Shown: one piece after another, positions 6,718 through 60,090 of the stretch
How positions within the stretch are numbered: position 1 is the stretch's first letter
How the letters are laid out: each line of letters starts with the position of its first letter
Assembly (NCBI GenBank): GCA_003576915.1
Contig: QEVF01000005.1
Coordinates: 1 to 64,000 of the forward strand
Length of the DNA stretch: 64,000 bases
From: Planctomycetota bacterium
GTDB lineage: Bacteria; Planctomycetota; UBA8742; UBA2392
Reading direction: 5' to 3'
Notes under the pieces: generated by a model
What the model was told of the DNA's origin: nothing
Database searches by the model: none
What the model saw: the letters and a program-made list of their open reading frames with translations, nothing else
Program-made: the position numbers and the translations under genes

Positions 6718-6733
6718 GGGTCCCTGCCGGCCG

Positions 6734-6782
6734 GCAGGCCGTTGAAACAGCGGCCGGATGGCACTTCTTCAGCAGGGCTTAG
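6734..6782 (+). repeat. Dispersed hairpin element, copy B (minimal form)
   Basis: This 49-base copy retains both ends of the element (GCAGGCCGTTGAA and TTCAGCAGGGCTTAG) around the GCCGGATGGC core, and lacks the internal hairpins. It sits between the convergent pap and phosphatase genes, where it may act as a bidirectional terminator. Its terminal TTA is the phosphatase stop codon (TAA on the minus strand). Confidence 0.7.
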
Positions 6783-13201: not shown

Positions 13202-13270
13202 CGTCTGCACCTGCCCTGAATCTGTCCCTGCACGCGCCCAAACCGGCCAGCCCTGCGCAGCCTCGCCGGA

Positions 13271-13317
13271 CCAGGTTGGAACAGTGGCGGGATGCCACTT
13301 CTTCAACGACCTGCTAA
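13271..13317 (+). repeat. Dispersed hairpin element, copy C (right-end hairpin)
   Basis: The copy reads CCAGGTTGGAACAGTGGC, then GGGAT and GCCACTTCTTCAACG, ending CCTGCTAA. The inner stem AGTGGC/GCCACT is perfect and the outer stem GTTGGAA/TTCAAC is nearly so. Only the right-hand hairpin of the long element remains. It lies directly upstream of lpxK and could terminate transcription from the TPR gene. Confidence 0.7.
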
Positions 13318-13320
13318 AAC

Positions 13321-40184: not shown

Positions 40185-40643
40185 GTTCGCTCCGACTCGC
40201 GTCAGAACCGGCGGGCGCCCCCTGGGGCCCTTGCTCCACCGGTCCAGGCCAAGGGTTTAGCGGCGTGGCCGGTTTCGTCAACGGCACACGCCATCGCGGC
40301 ACCGGGGCCGTGACCGTCTTTCCGTCCAGGCTTGGAAGCTTTCCGGGCTCCTCCATCTGCCGGCAACTCGCGGACAAAGTCTCATGGGGCCGCCTTCTCA
40401 ACCCCGTAGGGCCGCCGTGAATCGGGCCCAGGCGCCCATACAAGCGCCTTTCCAGCCGCCTCAACTGCTCAGGCATTCTCTGGCGGGCGTCTGCGGGACG
40501 CGCCGCATCGGGCTGCTGAAAGTGTCTGATTAGGCAAAAATACTTTCTTTCAGGTCAAAAATTTTCTTTCAAAGAACATGGAATTGCGCTACAGTAAAGA
40601 ACGTTGTCCTCCAAGTGAAAGCCCAACAGCGGAGTCCCAGCCC
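40185..40643. promoter_or_regulatory. Divergent intergenic region between rtcA and crtB
   Basis: This gap of 459 bases contains no supported gene. Its right part, about 40524-40600, is conspicuously AT-rich against a GC-rich background. It contains a direct repeat TTTCTTTCA at about 40551 and 40565, 14 bases apart. This is the likely promoter and operator region of the carotenoid operon. I found no clear consensus for a known light-dependent regulator site. Confidence 0.4.
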
Positions 40644-47447: not shown

Positions 47448-48180
47448 ACTCACAATTCCGCTTCAGCCCGGCGGGCCTTTGGCGGCCCTGCGTCGGCTGC
47501 TGGCCATGGCCTATGCCTTCCTCTGTGTGGGCGGCGTTGTGAGCTATGCCTTCACGAGTGGGCCGCCCGAGGGCCTGACCTGGACCGCGCCGGCCTATCT
47601 TGCACTGTCGGGAGCGCTGGTGCTGGCCTGCACACCCTTGAAGCAGTGGCAGGGTCCGCTCACCGCAGCCCTGATCGGCTTTGCCAGTGAACTCAGCGGC
47701 GTCGCGTTCGGACTTCCCTATGGTCATTACGAATACACGCCGGTGCTCGGGCCGGCGCTGCTGGGTGTGCCCCTCGTCCTGACCTGCGCCTGGCTTGTGC
47801 TCGCCGCCCATGTGCGCGGGGCCCTGGATGCCTGGCGCGTGCCGGCATCGGCGCAGCCCGTCCTGGGCGCGGCATGGATGACCGCCCTCGACCTCGTTAT
47901 CGACCCCCTGGCGGCCGGGCCGCTGGGATACTGGAGCTGGAGCGCCGGCGGCGTTTATTACGGGATTCCTGCCACAAACTTCGCGGGCTGGTTTGTGGTG
48001 AGCATGGTCATCTTCCTGGCCCTGCCCGCAAGCTGGCGGCCGCAACGGTCTCTGGTGTGGCTGGGCGCCAGTGTCATGGCCTTCTTTGCCGCGCTGGCGC
48101 TGTTACTGGGCTACGTCTGGCTTGGTGCGCTGAGTCTGGTGCTCGTGGCGCTGGGATTGGGCGGGCGGCGCCTGCCGTAA
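47434..48180 (+). CDS. Carotenoid biosynthesis protein, CruF (DUF422) family
   Basis: This 248-residue membrane protein has about seven predicted helices and the CruF/DUF422 pattern with YGHYEY, GVPLVLTCAW and ALDLVIDPLA segments. CruF proteins are carotenoid 1',2'-hydratases. With the CruG-like transferase it suggests a hydroxylated, glycosylated carotenoid. It overlaps the preceding gene by 14 bases. The usual acidic and His motif residues appear present, but I could not verify all of them. Confidence 0.78.
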   Translation: MSTPELTIPLQPGGPLAALRRLLAMAYAFLCVGGVVSYAFTSGPPEGLTWTAPAYLALSGALVLACTPLKQWQGPLTAALIGFASELSGVAFGLPYGHYEYTPVLGPALLGVPLVLTCAWLVLAAHVRGALDAWRVPASAQPVLGAAWMTALDLVIDPLAAGPLGYWSWSAGGVYYGIPATNFAGWFVVSMVIFLALPASWRPQRSLVWLGASVMAFFAALALLLGYVWLGALSLVLVALGLGGRRLP

Positions 48181-48186
48181 TCCATG

Positions 48187-48208
48187 GGGCGCTCGCGGCG
48201 GAGCGCCC
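48187..48208 (+). terminator. Hairpin after the carotenoid cluster
   Basis: GGGCGCTC (48187-48194) pairs with GAGCGCCC (48201-48208), with no T-tract. It may be a weak terminator. Confidence 0.4.
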
Positions 48209-48386
48209 GGGCGGCTCGCTGCGCCGCCATGCGAAGCCGTGCGTCGCCGTGGGCCTTGAAGACGCGTTCGGGTGTCCCCGACAAGCAATTCGGATGGATG
48301 GCCCGCATTTCCCCCACGCAGAGGATGGAAAGTGGAGGCCCCGGAATCGTCCGTGCAGTTCAGCCCCGCCGAAGGCCGATAGCTAT

Positions 48387-48540
48387 AGCAGGCCGTTGCA
48401 GTAAGGCCTGCGGGTGCAAGCCTTGGATGGCTTGCGTATTTCCGGCGGTTGAAGGGCCGCTTGAAATGGAGGTCGGGACAAGCTCACTTCGATCCGACCA
48501 GGTTGAAGGGCGGCCCGACGCCGCTCCTTCAACGACCTGA
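48387..48540 (+). repeat. Dispersed hairpin element, copy D (full length)
   Basis: This copy of about 154 bases has five hairpins in order: GCAGGCC/GGCCTGC, GCAAGCC/GGCTTGC, a GCGG-CCGC stem, GGTCGG/CCGACC and GTTGAAGG/CCTTCAAC with an inner GCGGC/GCCGC. Several stems differ from copy E at both paired positions while pairing is kept. It lies just before alr. Bases 48181-48386 and 48541-48562 hold no gene. Confidence 0.8.
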
Positions 48541-48562
48541 AAGTGCGCTTGCGGGTGCGGCC

Positions 48563-49681
48563 ATGTCCAGACTTCCCCAGCGCGTGTGGGCTGAAATCAG
48601 CCTCGACCACGCGCGGCACAACCTGAAACAGATTCGGCGCGCGGCGGGCCGGCGCAAGGTCATGGCCGTGCTGAAGGCCAACGCCTACGGCCACGGCGCC
48701 GCGGAAATGGCGCGGGTGTTCGTGCGTGAGGGCGTGGACGCCATCGGCGTGGGCGATTCCGGTGAAGCACTGGAACTGCGGGAAGCGGGCATCAAGGCCC
48801 CCATCCTGATCGTGGGGGCCATCATTGAAGGCGAGATGCCCGCCGTCGTCGAGCAGGACCTGGAAGTGAACCTGCACACCGTGGAAATGGCTGAAGCGCT
48901 GAACCAGGAAGCCGCGCGTCAGGGCAAACGGGTGCGGGTGCACTTGAAAATTGACACCGGCATGGGCCGCCTGGGCATGCAGCCCTTTCAGGCCGTGCCG
49001 TTTCTGCACCGCATGCACAACCTCGCCAACCTTGAACTGGTGGGCATGTGCACGCACTTCAGCTACCCCTACGAAGAGAATCCCAGCTTCACGCTGCGCC
49101 AGATCGAGCGTTTCAATGTCGCCGTGGATGTCGCGCGCCGCCTGGGCTACGACAATCTCACGCTGCACGCGGCTTCGAGCCTGGCCCTGTTCCGGCGCAA
49201 AGAGTCGCTGTTCAACATGGTGAGGCCGGGCGTGGCCCTGTGGGGGCTGCTGCCGGGCGACGAGCGGGGCCTGGCGCAGAAACTGAAGCCGGTGCTGTCG
49301 TGGAAGACGCGCATCGTGTTTTTGAAGGACGTGCCCGAAGGCCAGCCCATCGGCTACAACCGCACCTACTACACGCCCAACCCCACGAAAATCGCCACGC
49401 TGCCCGTGGGCTACAATGACGGCTACCGCCGCGCTCTGAGCAACAGGGCGGAAGTGCTGATCCGCGGAAAACGCTGCCCGGTCGTCGGCCTTGTAAGCAT
49501 GGACTACACCACGGTGGATGTCAGCGCGGTGCCGCAGGCGCAGGTGGGCGACGTTGTAACGCTCATCGGCTCGGACGGCAGGCAGGCGATCTCCGCCGAA
49601 GGTCTCGCGGCGGCCGCGGGCGTCAGCGTTTATGAACTGCTGTGCGGCCTTGGGCGCCGCGTGGTGCGGGTTTATTCTTAG
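48563..49681 (+). CDS. alr: Alanine racemase
   Basis: This 372-residue PLP enzyme interconverts L- and D-alanine for peptidoglycan. The PLP Lys38 is in AVLKANAYGHG and the second catalytic Tyr265 is in IGYNRTY. The rest of the fold shows TGMGRLG, a THFSY segment and GYNDGYRR. Length is normal. ATG 48563 is preferred; a longer frame runs into repeat copy D. Confidence 0.95.
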   Translation: MSRLPQRVWAEISLDHARHNLKQIRRAAGRRKVMAVLKANAYGHGAAEMARVFVREGVDAIGVGDSGEALELREAGIKAPILIVGAIIEGEMPAVVEQDLEVNLHTVEMAEALNQEAARQGKRVRVHLKIDTGMGRLGMQPFQAVPFLHRMHNLANLELVGMCTHFSYPYEENPSFTLRQIERFNVAVDVARRLGYDNLTLHAASSLALFRRKESLFNMVRPGVALWGLLPGDERGLAQKLKPVLSWKTRIVFLKDVPEGQPIGYNRTYYTPNPTKIATLPVGYNDGYRRALSNRAEVLIRGKRCPVVGLVSMDYTTVDVSAVPQAQVGDVVTLIGSDGRQAISAEGLAAAAGVSVYELLCGLGRRVVRVYS

Positions 49682-49769
49682 GCATGCTTCCGCTGCTGAA
49701 CTTCGGCCCCAAGGGGCGGCCCTGGCCCGTCGATCACGGCGCCCGTGCGCCACAAATTGGCGAAAATGG

Positions 49770-52130
49770 TCATTTTCCCATTGTCACCACTGCGCACTTA
49801 CCTTCGACGACTTGGACAAGGGCAGACCAGCGCGCACTAAATGATCTTGTTTGGCTTTCTGCCTTCGCCGTGGTGGAAGTAAGGACAAAGGCATAGACAC
49901 CCAGGGGCACACTCTCGAATGTGACCGAGGTCTGATACTTGAAGTTGGCCCCGAGTCCAGTAAGCACCCACACCGCGTTGCCTTGTTTCTGAAAAAACGG
50001 GCTCACCCCGACGTGATGCGATGCGCTGTCCGGGGAAATCGACGGGTCAAGCACGCACTGGAAACTGCTGGCATACTTCTGGGCTGCCTCTTCCACAATC
50101 CTTGTACCGTCCTTTTCCTGCCTACTGATTGTGACCTTGAAAAGACCCCTGGCGCCAAGGCAGATGTGGGGCAAAGCTGCAACCGCCGGCAGTGTACCCG
50201 AAGCGCGGAGCCGGTACTCCGTTCCCTTGAAAGGCAAACAGCGTGGGAAGAACTGCCGAAACTCATGGATCGGCATCTGGCCCAGCGCCCAGGCCGTCTG
50301 CTCGTCCAAGTCAGGCGGCAATAACCGCGCCCCCTGGAGGTTCGCGGGCAGCACCACAGCATATTCGTGTGTTGGCTCTATCTTTATAACAGCTTCACTG
50401 GCAATCAGCGGGTCGAAATCGATAGTGTGGCTGCGTAGTCCCAGGGTGCCGCCCAACAGTATTGTGTACTTTCCTCCCGTTCGCACGTGGGTATAGATAC
50501 GATGCTCCACCCGAAGGGGCGATGCACTGAAGTCAGACTGTTTTTGCGCATTGCCTTGGTCGGGAACAATCACGTAGGGTATGTGCCCGCCTGTGTCGAC
50601 TGGCGCTCCGGCAAGTACCAGAATCAGCGTGCGTGAAGCCTCCGCGCCCAGGCGTAAGACAATTTCAAATGGCTGACCGGACTCATCATAGGCTACTTCG
50701 ATTTTGGCCGACGGCCTCCCCTCCACCAAAGGAAGCGTCGCGGATTGGCCCGAGATCTCAAGATAGATACCAGCCTTACCCATCAGGCCTCCGACAGCAA
50801 CCTGGCCTTGCGCGTCGCTCACTGTTTCCATGGACATGAGTCCCTTGGCCTGAGCGGTACCATCGAATCGCTGGATCAGTCTCAACCGCATTCGATAATC
50901 GGGAACGGGGCGATCATCGACGTTTCGCACCTTGATCACCCCCCCCCATGTGTATGAAATGGGAAGCGCAACCACTTCAGCCAGGAAGTCCGACGCCCTG
51001 ACCACCGTCCGGCCTTCCGCTAGAGGTCGGCGAGATGATTCCATGGCCACCACAGTACAGAGGAGTGCCGCGCCGTCGGTGACCTTGGGAAGAACAAATT
51101 CGCAGACAAAGACAGTACCTATCTGAAGAATTCGCTCGGGGCGACCAACGTGGTAAACCCCGACCGCATGATCCTTGGATGGCTCCTGTGACACCACGTT
51201 CACGCCAAGCGGCACATGCTCGGGCGCGACCTCACGCCCAGCCCTCTTGGATTGAGATTCGGCAGCCATTCGTAAGCCTTGCTCCCAAACTCCACCGACG
51301 GAATCTTGCACCTGAAGTTTGACTAGAAAGCCCGGGCCAAGCTCGATGTGAACCAGGTCTCCTTCGCGCGGAGGAGATCCATTCAGGCTATCACTCAACT
51401 TGTAGACTCTGGTACTGTCACACCATACAGCGATGGAATTGCGCAATTGCGGCAGGACCGCTCGCACCGGTTCGCCGACTTGCGTCCTCACCGTCCGGCT
51501 CAGGTTCGACACCACTCTCGCAACTCCCCCAACCTCAATCATGAATGCGCAATGAACTTGGACCTGTTTGCCTACCAGAGCGGGGTACGTAGCACTCGGC
51601 AGAATCGAAACAGTCGCCATCGCGACCGCAGGCAGTATCCCCTGTCCACTGGCGAAGGGGCTGAACACCGCCAAGACCCCGCTGGAACAGATAATTGTCG
51701 CTCCGGGAAAGACGACAGAAGAAGTGCCTTGGAGATCGAACACACCGTCCCGGGCTGGAACCATGACGTAAGCGAAATCCGCGTCAAACTCCAACTCAAG
51801 CGCCTCTTGCGAGTCTCGCGACACCGCCAAAGCATGTACCCTCTCCCGCAGAGGAGGCGCGGCGGACAACCACTCCAACGAGAACTTCTGGACGCTTGCC
51901 GCTGTAGACTGTTCCTTGAGCGGTTCGCCACAACCGGCAACTTCCGAGCGGGGACGTTCACCATCGCTGACGGGGCTCGGGTCGGCGTCGCCGGGAGCGG
52001 CCCCGCGCGAAGCAGCCGGCGTGCCGCCCCAATGTGACGTTAACACGGGCCACGTGATCGCGAACGCCGCAATGAGCAGCGCGACGACAACCGCAGTTCT
52101 TCGTGCCGATCTCTCTTGCATTGTCCACAC
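49770..52130 (-). CDS. Large exported protein, unknown, in a lower-GC island
   Basis: This 786-residue protein has an N-terminal membrane helix (about 12-32) followed by a long extracytoplasmic part with many beta-type segments and no recognised domain. A possible carboxypeptidase-regulatory-like fold lies near 400-480 (VSDAQGQVAVGGL). Base composition here is visibly lower in GC than the flanks, suggesting recent acquisition. The start could be ATG 52130 or ATG 52121. It lies 16 bases downstream of the next secreted gene on the same strand and is probably co-transcribed with it. Confidence 0.65.
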   Translation of the reverse strand: MWTMQERSARRTAVVVALLIAAFAITWPVLTSHWGGTPAASRGAAPGDADPSPVSDGERPRSEVAGCGEPLKEQSTAASVQKFSLEWLSAAPPLRERVHALAVSRDSQEALELEFDADFAYVMVPARDGVFDLQGTSSVVFPGATIICSSGVLAVFSPFASGQGILPAVAMATVSILPSATYPALVGKQVQVHCAFMIEVGGVARVVSNLSRTVRTQVGEPVRAVLPQLRNSIAVWCDSTRVYKLSDSLNGSPPREGDLVHIELGPGFLVKLQVQDSVGGVWEQGLRMAAESQSKRAGREVAPEHVPLGVNVVSQEPSKDHAVGVYHVGRPERILQIGTVFVCEFVLPKVTDGAALLCTVVAMESSRRPLAEGRTVVRASDFLAEVVALPISYTWGGVIKVRNVDDRPVPDYRMRLRLIQRFDGTAQAKGLMSMETVSDAQGQVAVGGLMGKAGIYLEISGQSATLPLVEGRPSAKIEVAYDESGQPFEIVLRLGAEASRTLILVLAGAPVDTGGHIPYVIVPDQGNAQKQSDFSASPLRVEHRIYTHVRTGGKYTILLGGTLGLRSHTIDFDPLIASEAVIKIEPTHEYAVVLPANLQGARLLPPDLDEQTAWALGQMPIHEFRQFFPRCLPFKGTEYRLRASGTLPAVAALPHICLGARGLFKVTISRQEKDGTRIVEEAAQKYASSFQCVLDPSISPDSASHHVGVSPFFQKQGNAVWVLTGLGANFKYQTSVTFESVPLGVYAFVLTSTTAKAESQTRSFSARWSALVQVVEGKCAVVTMGK

Positions 52131-52146
52131 TCTTGCTCAGGCAATA

Positions 52147-53205
52147 TCAAGGCGTGTTCGGTTGACCGAAACTATGATTCTGATAGACGACCGCAGGGCA
52201 AAGAAAGTCGCTGGTATCGAAGTTCTGAAGCAGCTGGACCTCCCAAACGAAGATATAATTCCCGTACCGGTGCCAGCAGGTCAACTGCGATTCCTTCGTG
52301 GGATCCAGCGCTGCGGGAGGCGAGGTGAGGTCCTCCACGGTGAGGTTCCACGATCCGTAAACGTCATACGAATACTGATCAGAGTCAGGCGTGCTGGTCG
52401 AGGAGTACGTCGTCATGACGGTAGTCTCGTACCAGCCATCGATCAACACGGAATATGAGTTGTTAGCGGCGGCAGTCCACGTCCACTCTCCGTCGCTTTC
52501 ATTGCCTTGGTGCTCGACCTGCCAGCCGCTGCCGGAGTTTGTGCGGGCCGAGACGTCAATGGGCATCGGCGTGTCTCCCTCGTATATGTGCGACCTGAGG
52601 CCCGTCGCGGTAATGGCGACATTGCCGCCATCATAGGAGCCTGTGACACGTGTCGTATTGTAATTGCCCTTGATATCCATGGACTCAATATAGGCGTCGA
52701 AGTTTGTAGATTGGCTGGGAGCCGCCGCGTCCCATTGAACATAAACCTGGTGCCACGCACGCTGGACAAGAAGCACGGACCAAATTGCCTCGCCGTCCTG
52801 GCTGGACGTCGTCTCCACCTGGACCGTCTCGGCCTCCCAGGCATTGGAGGCTGTCTGCTCACCGCGGCCATTGGGCGTGTTGGTGCCCTGGGTTATTCCG
52901 AGCGCGATGTGGACATCCGCGTCAATCTCCACGTCGGACTCTGCTTCCACCGAGGAAAAGAATTCCGTATAGCCGCCCTCATTGTTCGGCAGATTCACCA
53001 CATTCGGGGCAGGCACGTTCTGGTTTGGGCCGCTCTGATCGTTCAGACTCACGGTTATGTATCCTTCATTGAGCTTGTCCGGAAAGGCAATCGGCAACCC
53101 GTAGGCACTGACCCCCCTTATACCGGTGGCACGTCCCGCAAACGCGGTGGCAATCAACACTACGGCCAGTAGTACTGCCAGAAAGCGCTTCCCGTTTCCG
53201 TTCAT
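52147..53205 (-). CDS. Secreted protein, unknown, in a lower-GC island
   Basis: This 352-residue protein has a signal peptide (residues 1 to about 27). Its mature part is rich in Ser, Thr, Asn and Tyr, with many beta-strand-like stretches and few Lys or Cys, as in secreted or surface proteins. No family is recognised. It shares the lower-GC composition of its downstream neighbour. A possible promoter with homopolymer tracts lies just upstream. Confidence 0.65.
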   Translation of the reverse strand: MNGNGKRFLAVLLAVVLIATAFAGRATGIRGVSAYGLPIAFPDKLNEGYITVSLNDQSGPNQNVPAPNVVNLPNNEGGYTEFFSSVEAESDVEIDADVHIALGITQGTNTPNGRGEQTASNAWEAETVQVETTSSQDGEAIWSVLLVQRAWHQVYVQWDAAAPSQSTNFDAYIESMDIKGNYNTTRVTGSYDGGNVAITATGLRSHIYEGDTPMPIDVSARTNSGSGWQVEHQGNESDGEWTWTAAANNSYSVLIDGWYETTVMTTYSSTSTPDSDQYSYDVYGSWNLTVEDLTSPPAALDPTKESQLTCWHRYGNYIFVWEVQLLQNFDTSDFLCPAVVYQNHSFGQPNTP

Positions 53206-53541
53206 GTTATCTTTCCAGAAAACACTGATAATTAATCCATACGACCATGTGGTGACACGATAACCCCCCCCAAAAAAAAGAATTTGTCAACAGGATTGCC
53301 GTATTGTCTTCATTCAATTTCAATTTTATGAAGAGTGCCCCAAACTATGTCGTAACGGCGCCGCGCCTCGCATCCGAGCGCGCACCGCCGGAGTCAGGAT
53401 CGACCAAGCCCGCCACGACGCTCGCAGCCTCGCATTAAACGCAGAACCCTTTCCGCGCCACACCGGCCGTCAGTTCGGGAACCCTTGTGGGGGGCGGCGG
53501 CCGTCATAAAGGCCGGAAGGGGCGCATGTCAAAGCCGCACT
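53206..53541 (-). promoter_or_regulatory. Intergenic region with homopolymer block and candidate promoter
   Basis: These 336 bases hold no gene. On the minus strand TTGACA (53290-53285) and TTATCG (53263-53258) are separated by 21 bases that contain eight T followed by eight G; on the plus strand these are C8 at 53264-53271 and A8 at 53272-53279. Slipped-strand change of either tract would alter promoter spacing. The left part is AT-rich; the rest is ordinary. Confidence 0.4.
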
Positions 53542-56304
53542 TCATGAACGGGTTTGGGCAAGCTCATTCAAGAGCGCCTGGGTCTGGTCCAGTTCGCGCT
53601 GGCGCACGATGTTGCCGCTCTGGATCATCTGCGAATACTCGCGGGCGGCCGCTTCCAGCAAGGCGCGGCAGCGAGCGATGGGATCGCCGGTCACCGCGCC
53701 CTGGGCCGCAAGCGAGGGCCCGTGCTTCATCAGGAAAGGCACAAAGCGCAAAACCAGGTCGCCCTTGGCCATTTCCTCGCTGGTCATGCCCAGAGCCGTG
53801 AGTTCGTCAAACTTCGCCAGGCTTTCGTCAAAGCGACGGCAGGCGTCAACCAGCTTGCCGTCGTGGGCCAGCAACTCGCCCTCCAGCGCCAGATTCATGG
53901 CCTCGAAGTCAATCTGACCCTGCGCCACGGAAGTCTGCCGCGCCGTGGCCACCAGGTCGCGGGCGTCTGCCATGCGGCCCAGGGCCACGTAGGCCCGCGC
54001 CAAGCCCGTCTCGATGACGGGCAGCGCCGCGGTCGTGCCGGCGTTGATGCACTCCGAGCGCGCCTCGCTCAGGCGTGCCACGGCCTGTTCGTGGCGCCCG
54101 CCATAGAGCGCGATGAGCCCCAGGTTGAGCAGGCAGTAAAGCGTGGCGGCGGCCTCGTCGCGCCGGCGCGCATTACTCAGGATGTTCTCGTAGGTCTGCA
54201 CCGCTTCCTCGATGCGGCCCTGCCAGTAGTAAACCGAGCCCAGGTTGAGCCGGGCCATTTCCGCGCGGCCGATGTCGCCGATGGCGACGAGCAGGTCATA
54301 GGCTTTCTTGAAGGCGGCCTCGCCTTCCAGGGGGCGGCCGCGGTGGGCCTTGACGGAACCCAGGGCCAGGAGCGTGCCCGCAAGATCAAAGCGGTTGGCC
54401 GTCTTTCCGGTCAACTCGTAGGCTTCGTCCAGCAGCAGCTCGGCCTGATCGAGCCTGTTTTCCTGCCGGTAAACATTGGCGGCCTGGTGCAGGCAATCCA
54501 GCGCGCGGCCGTGAAGCCCCTGCGTCAGGAAGATCTCGCGAGCGACAAAGAACAGGTCCCTTGCGCGCTCAGTTTCGCCGCGCCGGCGCACAATAACGCC
54601 GAAGGAGAAGGCCAGTTCCGCGTAATCCAGCGTGCCGCGCGGGGTCAGAGAAAGGGCGACCTCCAGTTCAGCCACGATCTCGGGGTGGCGGCCAGAAACC
54701 ACGTAGACGTCGGCCGTCTCACACAGGGCAAGTCGCAAGGTCTCGGCGTCGAGCAGGGCGCGATCCGGCAGCCGCCCGATGACCTCCGCCGCCCGACCGT
54801 AATTGCCAAGCTTGATGTGGGCGCGCGTAAGCGCCAGCAGCAAGGCGGCCTTCTGGGCCACGGTTTCCGGGCTGTCCTTGACCTGCCCCAGCACCGGCAG
54901 GATGCGGTCTGCCAGTTCCACGACCCCGAGAAACAGGCCTCGCTTGATGGCGTCACGGGCGGCGACAGCCGCCCAGTTCAGCGCCTCGGCGTGGTCGTGG
55001 CATTCCAGTGCGTGGTGCATCTGCAGGCAGGCCATGCGCTGGGGCAGGGCCGCCGTGAAGGGCGCCAGCGCGTTGAGGGCGGCGCGGTGGAACTGGCGCT
55101 GGTCGGCCGCCGGCATGACCATTTCGCAGGCATCGCGGAACACGGGGTGCCGGAACACCCAGTCGCCCTCGGCGCGCTGCAGGGGCTTGAGAAACCCCTG
55201 TTTGATCAGGCGCACGGCGTGGCGTGGCAGGTCTTCAATGTCGCCGCCGAGCTCACGGATCATGGCCACGAGCATGGGCTGGGGCGCGCGCAGGCCAATG
55301 GCGCCGGCCGCGACAATGGCCTGAAGCGTGGGCCCCGGCAGGCCGCGCAGGTTGTCGGCGATCATGGGCGCCGTGGACTTGGTCGAGCCCGCGCTTTCGA
55401 CGCCTTCGGCCACCGTCCAGGTGTTCTCCGCGCTGCTGATGATGATGTGCTGCGTGACCAGCAGGCGGATCTGCTGTTCGAGCACCAGCGCGTTGCCGTT
55501 GCTGCGGCGCCACAAGGTTTCATTGAGGCGGCGCGGCAGCACCGTGCCCTTGAGAATACGGCTGATGAAGACGCTTTGCTCTTCGGCCGTGAACGCCGGA
55601 ACATGCACCACCGCGGGCTCGCGACCGAGCGAGCGCACGCGGGAAAGGGCCTCGGCCGAACTGGCGCAGGTGGCAACGATCACCGGCGATTCGGCATCGC
55701 CCAGTCCCTGGAGTGCGCGGCCGATCAACTGGCCGCTGGATGAATCGGCGCGGTCAAGATCGTCCATGACCAGCAGCAGGCGCTGGCCCCTGCCCCGCGC
55801 ATCCAGCGTCAGGCAGCCAAGCAGGCCGCGCAAGGCGGCCACCAGCTCGCCGAAGTAGCCGTACTTCGTCAGCGAACGCTCCAGCGTGTCCGCTGCGTCG
55901 TAGCCCGCACTCCTCAACAGATAGGGCAAGCCGGCCTTGAGGTCCTTGCCGCGCGCTGTTTCCTGGTGGCGCTGGGCCAGTTCAGACAACTGGGCCCGCA
56001 GTTTCTCGACGGGGTCCTGAATGGACTCGTTTTCGTCCAGGAGGGCGAGCAGCAGCTCCATGACCAGAGACCCGGGTACGCTCACGGGGCGCGGCGCCGT
56101 GACGGTCAGTACCTGGAATTCGGGGCGGTCCTTGACGGCCTGCATCACCAGCCGCGACTTGCCCACGCCGGCGTCGCCCGTGACCAGAATGATGGGCGCT
56201 TGATCCGGCGCGGAAAGGCTTTGGGCCAGTTGTGCCAGCTGGGTCTGCCGGCCGACAAACTCCGGCACCGCCGGCAACGTGAGAAGTACGCGCGTGTAGG
56301 CCAT
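53542..56304 (-). CDS. AAA-ATPase/TPR regulator-like (STAND) protein
   Basis: This 920-residue protein has an N-terminal NTPase with Walker A GDAGVGKS (43-50) and a Walker B-like LLLVMDDLDRAD near 180. It is followed by a winged-helix-type region and many TPR units to about residue 880. It resembles the ATPase-TPR half of MalT/LuxR-type STAND regulators, but no DNA-binding or kinase domain is attached, so it may act through a partner. ATG 56304 is chosen because the upstream frame runs through repeat copy E. Confidence 0.75.
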   Translation of the reverse strand: MAYTRVLLTLPAVPEFVGRQTQLAQLAQSLSAPDQAPIILVTGDAGVGKSRLVMQAVKDRPEFQVLTVTAPRPVSVPGSLVMELLLALLDENESIQDPVEKLRAQLSELAQRHQETARGKDLKAGLPYLLRSAGYDAADTLERSLTKYGYFGELVAALRGLLGCLTLDARGRGQRLLLVMDDLDRADSSSGQLIGRALQGLGDAESPVIVATCASSAEALSRVRSLGREPAVVHVPAFTAEEQSVFISRILKGTVLPRRLNETLWRRSNGNALVLEQQIRLLVTQHIIISSAENTWTVAEGVESAGSTKSTAPMIADNLRGLPGPTLQAIVAAGAIGLRAPQPMLVAMIRELGGDIEDLPRHAVRLIKQGFLKPLQRAEGDWVFRHPVFRDACEMVMPAADQRQFHRAALNALAPFTAALPQRMACLQMHHALECHDHAEALNWAAVAARDAIKRGLFLGVVELADRILPVLGQVKDSPETVAQKAALLLALTRAHIKLGNYGRAAEVIGRLPDRALLDAETLRLALCETADVYVVSGRHPEIVAELEVALSLTPRGTLDYAELAFSFGVIVRRRGETERARDLFFVAREIFLTQGLHGRALDCLHQAANVYRQENRLDQAELLLDEAYELTGKTANRFDLAGTLLALGSVKAHRGRPLEGEAAFKKAYDLLVAIGDIGRAEMARLNLGSVYYWQGRIEEAVQTYENILSNARRRDEAAATLYCLLNLGLIALYGGRHEQAVARLSEARSECINAGTTAALPVIETGLARAYVALGRMADARDLVATARQTSVAQGQIDFEAMNLALEGELLAHDGKLVDACRRFDESLAKFDELTALGMTSEEMAKGDLVLRFVPFLMKHGPSLAAQGAVTGDPIARCRALLEAAAREYSQMIQSGNIVRQRELDQTQALLNELAQTRS

Positions 56305-56414
56305 GCGAGATTCACTGCCCGAAAGGGAACGTGACACAAGTGTATAGGTTGGCGAACCGGCGGGGCCAATGGTTTGCTTGCGGGACGTCTCTCGAATATC
56401 GTGGATGCCAAACA

Positions 56415-56572
56415 AGCAGGCCGTTGAAGTACGGCCTGCTGACGCAAGCCACGGATGGCTTGCGCATTTCATGCGGCTGAGAAGCCGCTGGAAAGGGAGG
56501 TCGGGACGAATTCACTTCGGCCCGGCCGGGTTGAAAAAGTAGCCGGATGCCAGTTTTTCAACAACTTCCTAG
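56415..56572 (+). repeat. Dispersed hairpin element, copy E (full length)
   Basis: The best copy, 158 bases. Five hairpins: AGCAGGCCGT/ACGGCCTGCT (56415-56440), CGCAAGCCA/TGGCTTGCG (56443-56464) and GCGGCT-GAGA-AGCCGC with a GNRA-type loop (56473-56488). The fourth is a 12-pair stem with one mismatch (56499-56527), the fifth GTTGAAAAA/TTTTTCAAC (56530-56562). It ends CTAG. The ends form a terminal inverted repeat of about 14 bases. Confidence 0.85.
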
Positions 56573-56584
56573 TGGAGCCAGCCG

Positions 56585-57064
56585 ATGCCCGATGTTTCCG
56601 AAGAAATGCAGGCCCTGGGGCGAATCCCCTCGGGGTTGTTCATCGTGACCGCCGAAAACTCCGGTCAGCGTGCGGCCTTTCTCGCCAGTTGGGTCATGCA
56701 GGCGGGGTTTTCGCCGCCGTCGGTGAGCGTGGCAGTAAAGCAGGATCGTCCCATCATGCGACAAATGGGCAGGGGCGCCCGGCTCGCCGTCAACATTCTG
56801 GCCAAGGACGACAAGGCGCTGCTGGGTCAGTTCGCCAAGGGATTTCCCCTGGACGCTGACCCCTTTGCGGGCGCGAAGATCGCTCGCACGGCCAACGGCA
56901 CTCCCTATCTGCTCGACGCCCTGGGCTTTCTTGAGCTCAATGTGATCCGCGTGCTGGAGCCCTCGACGGAACATAACCTGATCGTGGGCGAAGTCATCTC
57001 GGGCAAGATGCTCAAGGAGGGCGAGCCCTGGGTTCACGTGCGCAAGAACGGGGCGAACTATTAG
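56585..57064 (+). CDS. Flavin reductase-like FMN-binding protein
   Basis: This 159-residue protein belongs to the flavin reductase-like (split-barrel FMN-binding) family. A PSGLFIVTAENSGQRAAFLASWVMQAGFSPPSVSVA start, the RLAVNIL strand and an HNLIVGEV C-terminal segment are characteristic. It probably binds FMN and reduces a flavin or small electron acceptor; the partner is unknown. The stop codon TAG lies within a repeat fragment. Confidence 0.82.
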   Translation: MPDVSEEMQALGRIPSGLFIVTAENSGQRAAFLASWVMQAGFSPPSVSVAVKQDRPIMRQMGRGARLAVNILAKDDKALLGQFAKGFPLDADPFAGAKIARTANGTPYLLDALGFLELNVIRVLEPSTEHNLIVGEVISGKMLKEGEPWVHVRKNGANY

Positions 57065-57088
57065 CAGGTCGCGTTTCAACGGCTTGCT
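57061..57088 (-). repeat. Dispersed hairpin element, copy G (end fragment)
   Basis: TTAGCAGGTCGCGTTTCAACGG followed by CTTGCT matches the first hairpin of the long form in reverse orientation. AGCAGGTCG pairs with CGGCTTGCT using two wobbles. Its TAG (57062-57064) is the stop codon of the flavin reductase gene. Confidence 0.6.
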
Positions 57089-57135
57089 GGGGGCAGGTGT
57101 CGGACGCTTTTCAATCTTGATGGGGCCCGTCAGCC

Positions 57136-57531
57136 ATGGACATGTGTGAAATCCTGCGGACTTCCCGCCGCATTGCAGTTCTGGGGGCTTCGCCCCGGCC
57201 TGACCGCACGGCCCACGACATTGCCCTTTACCTCTCGCGCCACGGCTATGAAGTCGTGCCGGTGAATCCGCGCTACGAGGAGATTCAGGGCGCGCGCTGC
57301 TACAAAACCCTGGCCGAGGTTCCGCAGCCGGTGGACATTGTGGACGTCTTTCGCGCCGCGGAGCACGAAGATGAAGTGGCCGAGGAGATTCTCGCCATGA
57401 AGGTCAAGCCGCGCGCCGTGTGGTTTCAGTTGTTCGCGGGGGGCGAGGGGGTGCGTGAAACTCTGGAGCAGGCCGGCATCACGGTGTTTGTCGATCAGTG
57501 CATCAAAGTGGATCACTCTGCCTGCTCCTGA
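57136..57531 (+). CDS. CoA-binding protein (YccU-like)
   Basis: This 131-residue protein has the compact CoA_binding fold of YccU: RIAVLGASPRPDRTAHDIALYL at the start, then VVPVNPRYEEIQG, PVDIVDVFR, AVWFQLFAG and VDQCIKVDH motifs. It binds CoA in vitro in relatives, but its physiological role is unclear. Length is normal. Confidence 0.88.
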   Translation: MDMCEILRTSRRIAVLGASPRPDRTAHDIALYLSRHGYEVVPVNPRYEEIQGARCYKTLAEVPQPVDIVDVFRAAEHEDEVAEEILAMKVKPRAVWFQLFAGGEGVRETLEQAGITVFVDQCIKVDHSACS

Positions 57532-57590
57532 AGGCAGGTGCCTTGAGCGCGCGGCGCTGATAAAAGGCTGCGGGGCGAATCGGCCAGACC

Positions 57591-59090
57591 ATGAACCGCA
57601 CCTTTGACGAAGTCCACGCCTTCATACGCACCAACGAGCTGCTCGAGCGCGGCGAGAGCGTCCTGCTCGGGTTTTCCGGCGGCCCGGACAGCATGTTTCT
57701 CGCCTTTGCCCTCAAATCCATCAGCCAGACCTACAAGTACGGCTGGGACCTGACGCTGGCCCACCTCAACCACGGCATCACCCCGCGCGCCGCCGAGAAC
57801 GAGGCTTTCTGCCGCAAGGCAGCCTCCGATTTCTTCAAGCTGCCCCTGCTGGTTCAGAGTTCGAACGTGCCGGAGCTTCATGCCAGACCGGGCAACCGCG
57901 GCTTCTCCGTCGAATCGCTCGCCCGTCGCGAGCGCTACCGCTTCTTCATTGACACCTGCCGCGAGCGCGGCATCTCCAAACTCGCCACGGGGCACCAGCT
58001 TGACGATCAGGCTGAAACCGTGCTCATGCGCGCCATCGGCGGCTCCTGGCTCATCGGCATGGCCGGCATCCCCGTGCGCCGGCCCCTGGCGCGCGGCATC
58101 AGCACGGAGGTCGTCCGGCCCCTGCTGCGCATTTCGCGCGAGCAGGTGGAAGATTTCCTGCGCTCCGAGAAAATCTACTGGTTCGAAGACCAGTCCAACG
58201 CCGATCTGCGCTACGCGCGCAATCGCGTGCGTCACCAGCTCATGCCCATGCTGGTCCGGGAGTTCAACCCCAACGCGCGGCTGCACCTCGCCAGCCTGGG
58301 TATGCAGGCGGCCGAACTGGAGCAGGAGCTGGCGCGCATGAGCGCCGGCTTCTTCGACCCGCCGCAGACTCGCGCCGGGCAAACCAGCGCCCGCATCGAC
58401 ATTGAGCGCCTGCGCAAGCAGGGACCACTGGTGCAGCGTTACATCCTGCGCAACGCGCTTTTGGGTGTGGGCATGCCCATCCGCGAAGTGACCCACCGCC
58501 GCGTCGAGAGCATCCGGGACCTGCTTTCAAGCGAGCGGCGCGGCATCGTCGTCAAGCTCACGGACTCCGCCACGGTGCGGCTGGACGATCGCGAACTGGT
58601 CCTACTGCTCTCGCATGAAGAGCTGGAAGGCGAACACCTCCAGCATGCGGAATTCACCATCTGCAGCGACGGCTCGTGGCTGGCGGAGCTGAATGCGGGC
58701 CCCTATTCGCGGGTGCGCGCGGAAATGCTGGCCATGCCGGCGGGCGGCGTGAAGGAGCTGCTTCAGGGCAAGCCGCCGGAAGTGGAATACGTGGACGCCT
58801 CCAAGGTCCTGTTTCCGCTTTATGTGCGCAGCCGCAAAGATGGCGACCGCATCCGCCCCCTGGGCATGGAAGGCGAAAAAAAGCTTCAGGACCTGCTGAC
58901 CGACACCAAGGTGCCACGCGATCAGCGCGACCTGGTTCCCCTCGTCTGCGACAGCAACGGCATTGTCTGGGTGGTGGGTCAGACGATTGCCAACCATCTC
59001 AAGGTCACTGAGCGCAGCAGCCAGGTTCTGGCCCTGAGCGTGCTGGCGCGCACCGCCGAGCAAAGCGGCTGGCTCCCCGCCGTCGAGTAA
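57591..59090 (+). CDS. tilS: tRNA(Ile)-lysidine synthase
   Basis: TilS converts cytidine 34 of the tRNA-Ile CAU anticodon to lysidine, which is essential for reading AUA. The 499-residue product has the PP-loop SGGPDS (29-34), the HLNHGI and GHQLDDQAETVLMR motifs, and the C-terminal domain with DRIRPLGMEGEKKLQDLLTD. Length is normal. The next gene, on the opposite strand, ends directly against its stop codon. Confidence 0.93.
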   Translation: MNRTFDEVHAFIRTNELLERGESVLLGFSGGPDSMFLAFALKSISQTYKYGWDLTLAHLNHGITPRAAENEAFCRKAASDFFKLPLLVQSSNVPELHARPGNRGFSVESLARRERYRFFIDTCRERGISKLATGHQLDDQAETVLMRAIGGSWLIGMAGIPVRRPLARGISTEVVRPLLRISREQVEDFLRSEKIYWFEDQSNADLRYARNRVRHQLMPMLVREFNPNARLHLASLGMQAAELEQELARMSAGFFDPPQTRAGQTSARIDIERLRKQGPLVQRYILRNALLGVGMPIREVTHRRVESIRDLLSSERRGIVVKLTDSATVRLDDRELVLLLSHEELEGEHLQHAEFTICSDGSWLAELNAGPYSRVRAEMLAMPAGGVKELLQGKPPEVEYVDASKVLFPLYVRSRKDGDRIRPLGMEGEKKLQDLLTDTKVPRDQRDLVPLVCDSNGIVWVVGQTIANHLKVTERSSQVLALSVLARTAEQSGWLPAVE

Positions 59091-59441
59091 TCACTTGCGG
59101 TCGTCGAGGTTCTTCAGGATTGCCTTGGTGTGGGGCCCATAGAAGCGGTCGTGCTGCAGTTCCGTGGCGCGCTTGACCACATCAAACTGCTGCTCCTGCT
59201 CCTTGAGATACTCCAGGCCCTCCGCCGCCGGCCTTGTCAGGGCTTCGCGATAAATGGCCAGGTCTTCAGTCGTGATCAGGTGAACGTCCAGGCCGCGCAT
59301 GTGATTGAGCACTTCCGCGGCGCAGACATCGGCGCCTTGCGAGCTGGTCTTCTTGGCCCAGTTCATCACGGCCTGGCTCGTGAGCTGGCCATCCTCCCAC
59401 TGCCGGAATACGCGGAGCAATTCATCACGCAGCTTGTTCAT
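59091..59441 (-). CDS. Small soluble protein, unknown
   Basis: This 116-residue protein is mostly helical, with an N-terminal DELLRVFRQWEDGQLTSQAVMNWAKK segment. I do not recognise the family. ATG 59441 is preferred, because upstream codons in the frame belong to repeat copy F. It converges on tilS with no spacer. Confidence 0.55.
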   Translation of the reverse strand: MNKLRDELLRVFRQWEDGQLTSQAVMNWAKKTSSQGADVCAAEVLNHMRGLDVHLITTEDLAIYREALTRPAAEGLEYLKEQEQQFDVVKRATELQHDRFYGPHTKAILKNLDDRK

Positions 59442-59451
59442 GAAGTGCACT

Positions 59452-59598
59452 CTAGCAGGCTGCTGAAGAAGTGGCATCCGGCCACTTTTTCAGCCCGGTC
59501 GGGCCACTGTCAATGTCGTACCGACTTCCCACGTGAAGCGGCCATCCAGCCGCGACAACTGGGCCCGCCTTCCCTGACTTGCGCTGTCAACGGCCTGC
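59452..59598 (-). repeat. Dispersed hairpin element, copy F (reverse orientation)
   Basis: This near full-length copy is inverted relative to copies D and E. It begins CTAGCAGGCTGCTGAAGAAG. The GTGGC/GCCAC hairpin is followed by a CGGTCGGGCC segment, GCGGCCATCCAGCCGC and, at the far end, CAACGGCCTGC. The gap to the next gene (59599-59694) holds nothing recognised. Confidence 0.75.
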
Positions 59599-59694
59599 GG
59601 GCAGTCGTGCAACGGCTGCGGGCTTTGATTTGCCGGTCCCAAGGCCGCGAAGAGCCTCTGGCAATCGCGGCCCGTCCATCCATAATCACCGGAC

Positions 59695-60090
59695 ATGGAA
59701 GACCTGCTGACCGCCCTGGAACCCTACGCCAGCTTCCGTTTCACGCTGGGGCTCGTGCTCACGGGGCTGACCATCTACCTCACGGTCAGCAGCCTGATTT
59801 CACTGCGCCAGTTCCTTGCTTTCCTCAACGACCTCGATCGCCAGGCCAAAGGACAGCGATTGCTCGACAATGCCCGCCTCGCCCTCGACCCCGCATGCGA
59901 TCTCGGCCGCCTGCCTGCGCTCAGGGCCAGGCCGGGTCACATCATCAAGACCGCCGTGTTTCTCGCGTGCCTGCGCCTGCTTTCGTGGCGCACCCTGGCG
60001 CGGCATTGGGTCCAGTGGCTGACCCTGGCGGCCCTCACGGGGGCCAGCTTGCCGATGTACTGGTACGTGTTCAAATTCGGCGGAGTTTAA
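59695..60090 (+). CDS. Small membrane protein, unknown
   Basis: This 131-residue protein has an N-terminal hydrophobic helix (about 13-38), a soluble stretch and a second helix (about 105-125). I see no family signature. It is followed by a terminator hairpin shared with the converging gene. Confidence 0.55.
   Translation: MEDLLTALEPYASFRFTLGLVLTGLTIYLTVSSLISLRQFLAFLNDLDRQAKGQRLLDNARLALDPACDLGRLPALRARPGHIIKTAVFLACLRLLSWRTLARHWVQWLTLAALTGASLPMYWYVFKFGGV

Follow-up and report, generated by a model that had tools for sequence, protein, structure and literature searches.

Several families of short, non-coding repeats are known to reach high copy number in bacterial genomes while retaining strong folding, as described for the BOX, RUP and SPRITE elements of Streptococcus pneumoniae, which are enriched between convergent genes (PMC3049150). 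In BOX and RUP, terminal inverted repeats are accompanied by target duplications, and a resident insertion sequence (IS) is believed to mobilise them; the pneumococcal elements have been linked to ISSpn2 and IS630-Spn1. BOX also provides the stop codon for 36 annotated genes (PMC3049150). For IS5 itself, the target duplication is Py-T-A-Pu, most often CTAG (PMC5493358). The repeat analysed here was found in a 64,000-nt stretch of the draft genome (3.9 Mb, 59 contigs) of a Planctomycetota bacterium, referred to below as the window. It represents a new MITE family whose interior is unusual in carrying several hairpins and whose copies frequently land on stop codons. Two further genomes were used for comparison, namely that of a sister species of the same genus (G002) and that of a member of the same family but a different genus (G006).

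Architecture and copies of the repeat

The repeat unit is about 157 nt long, comprises five stems in fixed order and is present in about 90 copies in the draft genome. Copies were sampled by a sequence search, from which 40 were scored and used to build a covariance model; the 114 matches listed for this model include some copies hit a second time on the other strand. With a sequence profile, 87 copies were retrieved from the own genome and 10 from the sister species. The consensus stems are GCAGGCCG/CGGCCTGC in hairpin 1, CGCAAGCC/GGCTTGCG in hairpin 2, ATTTCAAGCGGCT/AGCCGCTTGAAAT in hairpin 3, which carries a GAAA-type loop (GAAA or GGAA in most copies), GGTCGGGCCAGA/TTTGGCCCGACC in hairpin 4 and GCTGAAAAAGTGGC/GCCACTTTTTCAGC in hairpin 5. 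The element holds no transposase gene and has stops within it.

Folding was considerably stronger than that of dinucleotide shuffles, with a mean z of -6.6 over 94 copies. The plus strand gave the more stable fold in 73 of these 94 copies; this was set aside as evidence for an RNA, as the two consensus strands already differ by 3 kcal/mol. No family was found at the gathering score in an Rfam search, and the TD-2 match at E 0.2 was rejected as chance. Consensus hairpin 5 consists of a GC stem followed by a U run on both strands, and a terminator scan of positions 48000-60000 flagged none of the copies.

Two copies in the window, D and E, were confirmed to be full-length members of one repeat with the five stems in identical order, as the first-pass annotation had described. 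Copy D (48386-48545) lies on the plus strand; taken with its 4-bp target duplication it was placed at 48385-48543 (covariance model 140 bits; folding z -3.5), made up of ATAG (48385-48388), the element core (48389-48539) and AAAG (48540-48543), a mutated second target copy. With the structure mapped from A1, its hairpin 1, formed by the left terminal repeat and its local complement, was placed at 48388-48411, hairpin 2 at 48415-48436, hairpin 3 at 48438-48467, hairpin 4 at 48471-48499 and hairpin 5, which has a one-base deletion, at 48502-48533. Copy E (56414-56574), also on the plus strand, was placed at 56413-56572 (163 bits; z -8.5) including its target 4-mers CAAG (56413-56416) and CTAG (56569-56572), with mapped hairpins at 56416-56439, 56443-56464, 56466-56495, 56499-56527 and 56530-56562; the GAGA loop reported for its hairpin 3 is indeed present.

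The other copies in the window are incomplete or decayed. A third, older copy on the minus strand (59450-59609; 66 bits) has its hairpin-1 region deleted and is an insertion also found in the sister species, with flanks that are 85% identical. A degenerate copy lies at 40358-40518 on the minus strand (29.9 bits, E 2.8e-6). On the plus strand, alignment of a deleted copy at 137-231 (40.9 bits) showed the left half of the element fused to its right end, adjoining the CTAG stop codon of a gene called at 226-1440 on the minus strand, and a remnant at 13223-13319 (22 bits, E 3e-4) retains hairpin 5 and the right end. A short palindromic remnant of the left end and hairpin 5 (6732-6775, plus strand; end pattern at 6732, weak model match) forms an inverted repeat with 59460-59492.

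Ends, target sites and the probable partner insertion sequence

The repeat had been suspected of being mobile, and this was borne out by its ends, its 4-bp target duplication and its empty sites. The terminal inverted repeats are about 15-18 bp long with ends TAGCAGGCYGYTGAAATA, and the motif TAGCAGGCYGYTGAA, present at both element ends, gave 103 matches in the genome compared with 1 in a reversed control. Copies D and E were absent at the orthologous sites of the sister species, where precise empty sites with one 4-bp target copy were observed (GCTATAGTGCGC versus GCTATAG-element-AAAGTGCGC for copy D, and GCCTACTCGTGGAG versus GCCAAACAAG-element-CTAGTGGAG for copy E). The target lies at CTAG-like (CYRG) sites; empty sites have a single copy of it, and occupied sites one on either side of the element. 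CTAG was the commonest boundary 4-mer on both sides, followed by CTGG, CCAG and CCGG, and left and right 4-mers agreed by letter significantly more than when shuffled; identical pairs (11 of 76) were not significant by identity alone (p 0.16), target duplications often being decayed. The target also matches the Py-T-A-Pu rule of IS5.

At ten contig ends the assembly breaks off about 80-170 nt into a longer element that has the 18-bp ends of the MITE. Five are left ends (contigs C6, C12, C36, C45 and C56), in which a reading frame begins MRGHKNR, and five are right ends (C28, C29, C40, C52 and C55); the longest right end encodes AGATYNLLRMKNLKLA-stop, with YNLLRMKNL-stop as in the complete transposase. 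The transposase of this IS was seen in the own genome only as short N- and C-terminal matches, its interior not being assembled, and searches with PF13751, PF05598 and the transposase of locus L167 as queries found no complete transposase there, which we attribute to collapse of the IS copies at contig ends. An N-terminal transposase fragment also lies at a contig end in genome G001. The partner IS is known from its two ends and its relatives.

When the GTDB genome collection was scanned with the 20-nt end, 76 stretches were returned from Proteobacteria, Planctomycetota and Verrucomicrobia. Among them were complete elements (1270-1358 bp) and further MITEs (135-190 bp), for the most part with CTAG flanks. 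Two complete transposases, from elements with ends identical to those of the MITE, scored 242 and 278 bits against NF033581 (cut-off 140), which places them in the IS5 family. An IS1182-type partner was dropped, the IS1182 model having scored below its own cut-off. The 20-nt IS5-type end was additionally seen at many broken contig ends of Candidatus Paraburkholderia calva (Alphaproteobacterial/Paraburkholderia loci L148-L223), which suggests a heavily expanded IS in that organism. The own genome also has a Y1 (IS200/RAYT-like) transposase gene with a strong score of 97.6 bits, at positions 36814-37155 of contig C56 (G000:C56:36814-37155); it is not associated with the MITE.

Insertion at stop codons and orientation

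Gene calls at the element flanks were made with a simple codon-usage score. With these calls, the boundary TAG was the in-frame stop codon of the facing gene at 31 of 64 gene ends in the own genome, 4 of 8 in G002 and 18 of 32 in G006. Much of this landing on stop codons is explained by the availability of CTAG, which is all but absent from genes and survives at C-TAG stops: in the window (1-64000) the tetranucleotide occurs 11 times, below the 206 that base composition would give and the 39 of a Markov model, and these 11 sites include three stop codons and two element ends, with only one lying inside a called gene.

The left end of the element faces the gene more often than the right (stops 21:10 in the own genome, 13:5 in G006). 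Between tandem gene pairs, the element was co-directional with transcription in ratios of 15:6 in the own genome, 8:1 in G006 and 6:0 in G002, two of the last six not being shared with the own genome. Pooled without shared insertions, the ratio was 25:7 (two-sided binomial p about 0.002), single genomes being weaker (p 0.08 and 0.04). As the target is palindromic, insertion chemistry alone does not predict this bias, which is the best remaining hint of an RNA-level effect, or of an insertion strand bias.

Covariation between stem arms

According to the first-pass annotation, both sides of a stem often change together where copies D and E differ, but this was found to be an overstatement. At 76% identity between the two copies, 18 of the 55 pairs differ. 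Three of these 18, all in hairpin 5, are the only ones to have changed on both sides while staying Watson-Crick. In a further 13 one side alone differs, with wobble or mismatched pairs arising or being lost; another differs on both sides but pairs in neither copy, and the last coincides with the deletion. The example GTTGAAGG/CCTTCAAC given in support is compensatory and corresponds to the three hairpin-5 pairs; that from hairpin 4 (GGTCGG/CCGACC against GGTCGGG/CCCGGCC), however, is one-sided, with T-A against T-G and G-T against G-C.

The proposed check by covariation over many copies was carried out on 88 copies against two tree-preserving null models. These replaced the significance from a column-shuffle control (0/500), since that shuffle ignores the relatedness of the copies. 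The outcome of the check was divided: none of the 55 structural pairs was individually significant (best E 0.055 and 0.06 under the two nulls), whereas the sum of compensatory events, defined as both partners changing on one branch and ending as a standard pair, exceeded the null (30 versus 15.6±3.8, with a maximum of 27 in 300 simulations). The top structural pair, 118-148 in hairpin 5 (T-A 40, C-G 25), ranked first of 12,403 column pairs, and four structural pairs were among the top 100 compared with 0.4 expected. One-sided changes showed a mild excess of G-U over A-C (177:135), mainly in hairpin 3 (43:19), and most one-sided stem changes disrupt the pair. The total compensatory excess is therefore real, without the pair-level support expected of a conserved RNA.

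It may be argued that this covariation reflects nothing but shared ancestry, a few old subfamilies having been amplified with no process acting on pairing. At the covarying columns most copies do belong to one of a small number of combinations, and no individual pair covaries significantly once the null preserves the tree. Such an account, however, leaves compensatory events at about twice the null expectation, and those listed fall mostly on terminal branches and at scattered positions. Furthermore, a different element in G006 also swaps T-A for C-G in its hairpin 1 (14 versus 12 copies, and once G-C for T-A). Shared ancestry as the sole cause is consequently considered rather unlikely.

Divergence of stems and loops after insertion

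Six of the 10 copies in G002 share both flanks with copies in the own genome (85-99% identity) and were therefore taken as the same insertions. Across these six, stems differed at 88 of 650 positions (13.5%) and loops at 42 of 265 (15.8%), giving no indication of stem constraint (p=0.40). On internal branches of the copy tree, stems accumulated 1.49 changes per column versus 2.79 in loops, about half, and on terminal branches 6.37 versus 8.31, a ratio of about 0.77. We infer that structure is kept in lineages that are still mobile and not in resident copies.

These data bear directly on the suggestion that secondary structure is selected as RNA in the host, the copies being kept for a function as 3'-UTR stabiliser, transcription terminator or regulatory RNA. 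In keeping with this, the repeats fold strongly, have GNRA-like loops, lie directly behind stop codons in co-orientation with flanking genes, and show both the summed excess of compensatory events and the mild G-U over A-C excess. However, no single pair was significant, stems diverged like loops in the shared insertions, and one-sided stem changes mostly broke the pair; no Rfam family reached the gathering score, the terminator scan flagged none of the window copies, and the element has moved recently, as shown by empty sites in the sister species. Host selection on an RNA is therefore not supported and appears improbable. The hairpins are real, and there is no sign of the host preserving them once a copy has landed.

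Repair of the arms through template switching, or a constraint acting while the element spreads, accounts better for these findings than host RNA selection. Template switching can yield compensatory changes in one step without selection, and exact inversion of a loop is a known mark of such switching between arms (PMC8794818). The hairpin-3 loop at locus L044 is exactly inverted, and as this was the sole clear loop inversion found, template switching is thinly supported. The compensatory excess, the slower stems of internal branches and the orientation bias are also compatible with template-switch repair or with selection during spread.

Proposed mode of spread

The repeat is very probably a MITE moved in trans by an IS5-type transposase, its arms being matched during spread and not measurably maintained by the host. 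As read from the shared ends, an IS would supply the transposase in trans, with DDE cut-and-paste acting on double-stranded ends. The element often lands on a C-TAG stop codon, which the duplicated TAG restores, and the five hairpins follow in the gene's 3' untranslated region, a placement given by their position and a predicted transcript. The stem arms are probably kept in step mainly while the element spreads, one arm being copied from the other by template switching between inverted repeats, or selection acting for spread or harmlessness, or both; after landing, the hairpins would not be measurably maintained. Against this explanation stand the lack of a complete transposase gene in the own assembly, the frequent decay of target duplications, the finding of a single clear loop inversion and the orientation bias (25:7), which a palindromic target leaves unexplained and which hints at some effect on the transcript. 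Transposition as single-stranded DNA (IS200/IS605 or RAYT/REP type), also raised in the first-pass annotation and with hairpins as Y1 transposase substrate, is most improbable, for although the hairpins have a TAG-containing tetranucleotide at their foot and the genome has three Y1_Tnp genes, it is largely refuted by the 4-bp target sequence repeated on both sides and by inverted ends common to an IS5-family DDE element, and around the four Y1 loci examined no real match to the element lay within about 1.5 kb.

More tentatively, the two different hairpin-array MITEs of this one planctomycete family might be adapted as 3' untranslated regions acting in cis on the transcript, although we consider this doubtful. 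If so, they would enter C-TAG stops, recreate the stop through the target duplication that they cause, and mostly be kept with the left hairpin transcribed first, the array blocking read-through or decay and so making the insertion tolerable or useful.

Landing on self-restoring stop codons, in a genome poor in other CTAG sites, offers a simple account of how a repeat may spread densely without breaking genes. The case also shows that a mobile element can look like a functional RNA when covariation is assessed between its paralogous copies. With shared insertions, empty sites and dozens of copies, it provides a clean test case for RNA selection versus template-switch repair of inverted repeats.

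Related hairpin arrays and deletion forms

The G006 element has a different hairpin array enclosed by near-identical ends (TAGCAGGGYGTTGAAATAG...CAACGGCCTGCTAG). The own genome also has a second MITE type (C25:36351-36496, locus L058; C5:67051, locus L061), which combines the ends of the MITE with other hairpins, one of them (GGCCCG..CGGGCC) being common to the G006 type. Deletion forms extend down to about 50 nt (C10:29605). Together, the differing arrays and deletion forms indicate that hairpin modules are gained and lost between constant ends. Further deletion forms, at L057 (C52:72419-72562 and C52:74878-74984) and L056 (C45:20908-21043), have their junctions at the repeated motif GCTGAAA, which occurs at the left end, in hairpin 3 and in hairpin 5, and suggest hairpin loss by recombination between short repeats. 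In both species, an old shared copy (L111 / L083) nearly fills the spacer between two genes; it has lost hairpin 1, and the stem of its hairpin 2 is extended, with changes in both arms (CGGGCAGGCC/GGCTTGCCCG).

Comparison with known systems

The planctomycete MITE resembles BOX, RUP and SPRITE in being short, non-coding, high-copy and strongly folded. Those elements are linked to other IS and have other sequences and targets, whereas the ends of the present MITE belong to an IS5-type element. Five separate GC-rich hairpins in a row make up its interior, and it is the target duplication that restores the stop codon. Its 4-bp CTAG-like target is shared with the IS5 family (NF033581; E. coli IS5) (PMC5493358), and its ends are those of complete IS5-type elements in Paraburkholderia xenovorans and a planctomycete; unlike these, it has no transposase gene, and its interior is unrelated to the IS. 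With REP/BIME sequences, which are moved by RAYT (Y1) transposases, it shares many intergenic hairpin copies with TAG at the foot, but it is much longer, has true terminal inverted repeats and a 4-bp target duplication, and shows no association with Y1 genes. Other MITEs, of Alphaproteobacteria and Phycisphaerales (L158, L187, L195 and L202), have the same ends (TAGCAGGCTGTTGAAATAGG), a length of 135-190 nt and CTAG flanks; most of these, however, fold with both ends paired in one long terminal stem, and their interiors differ.
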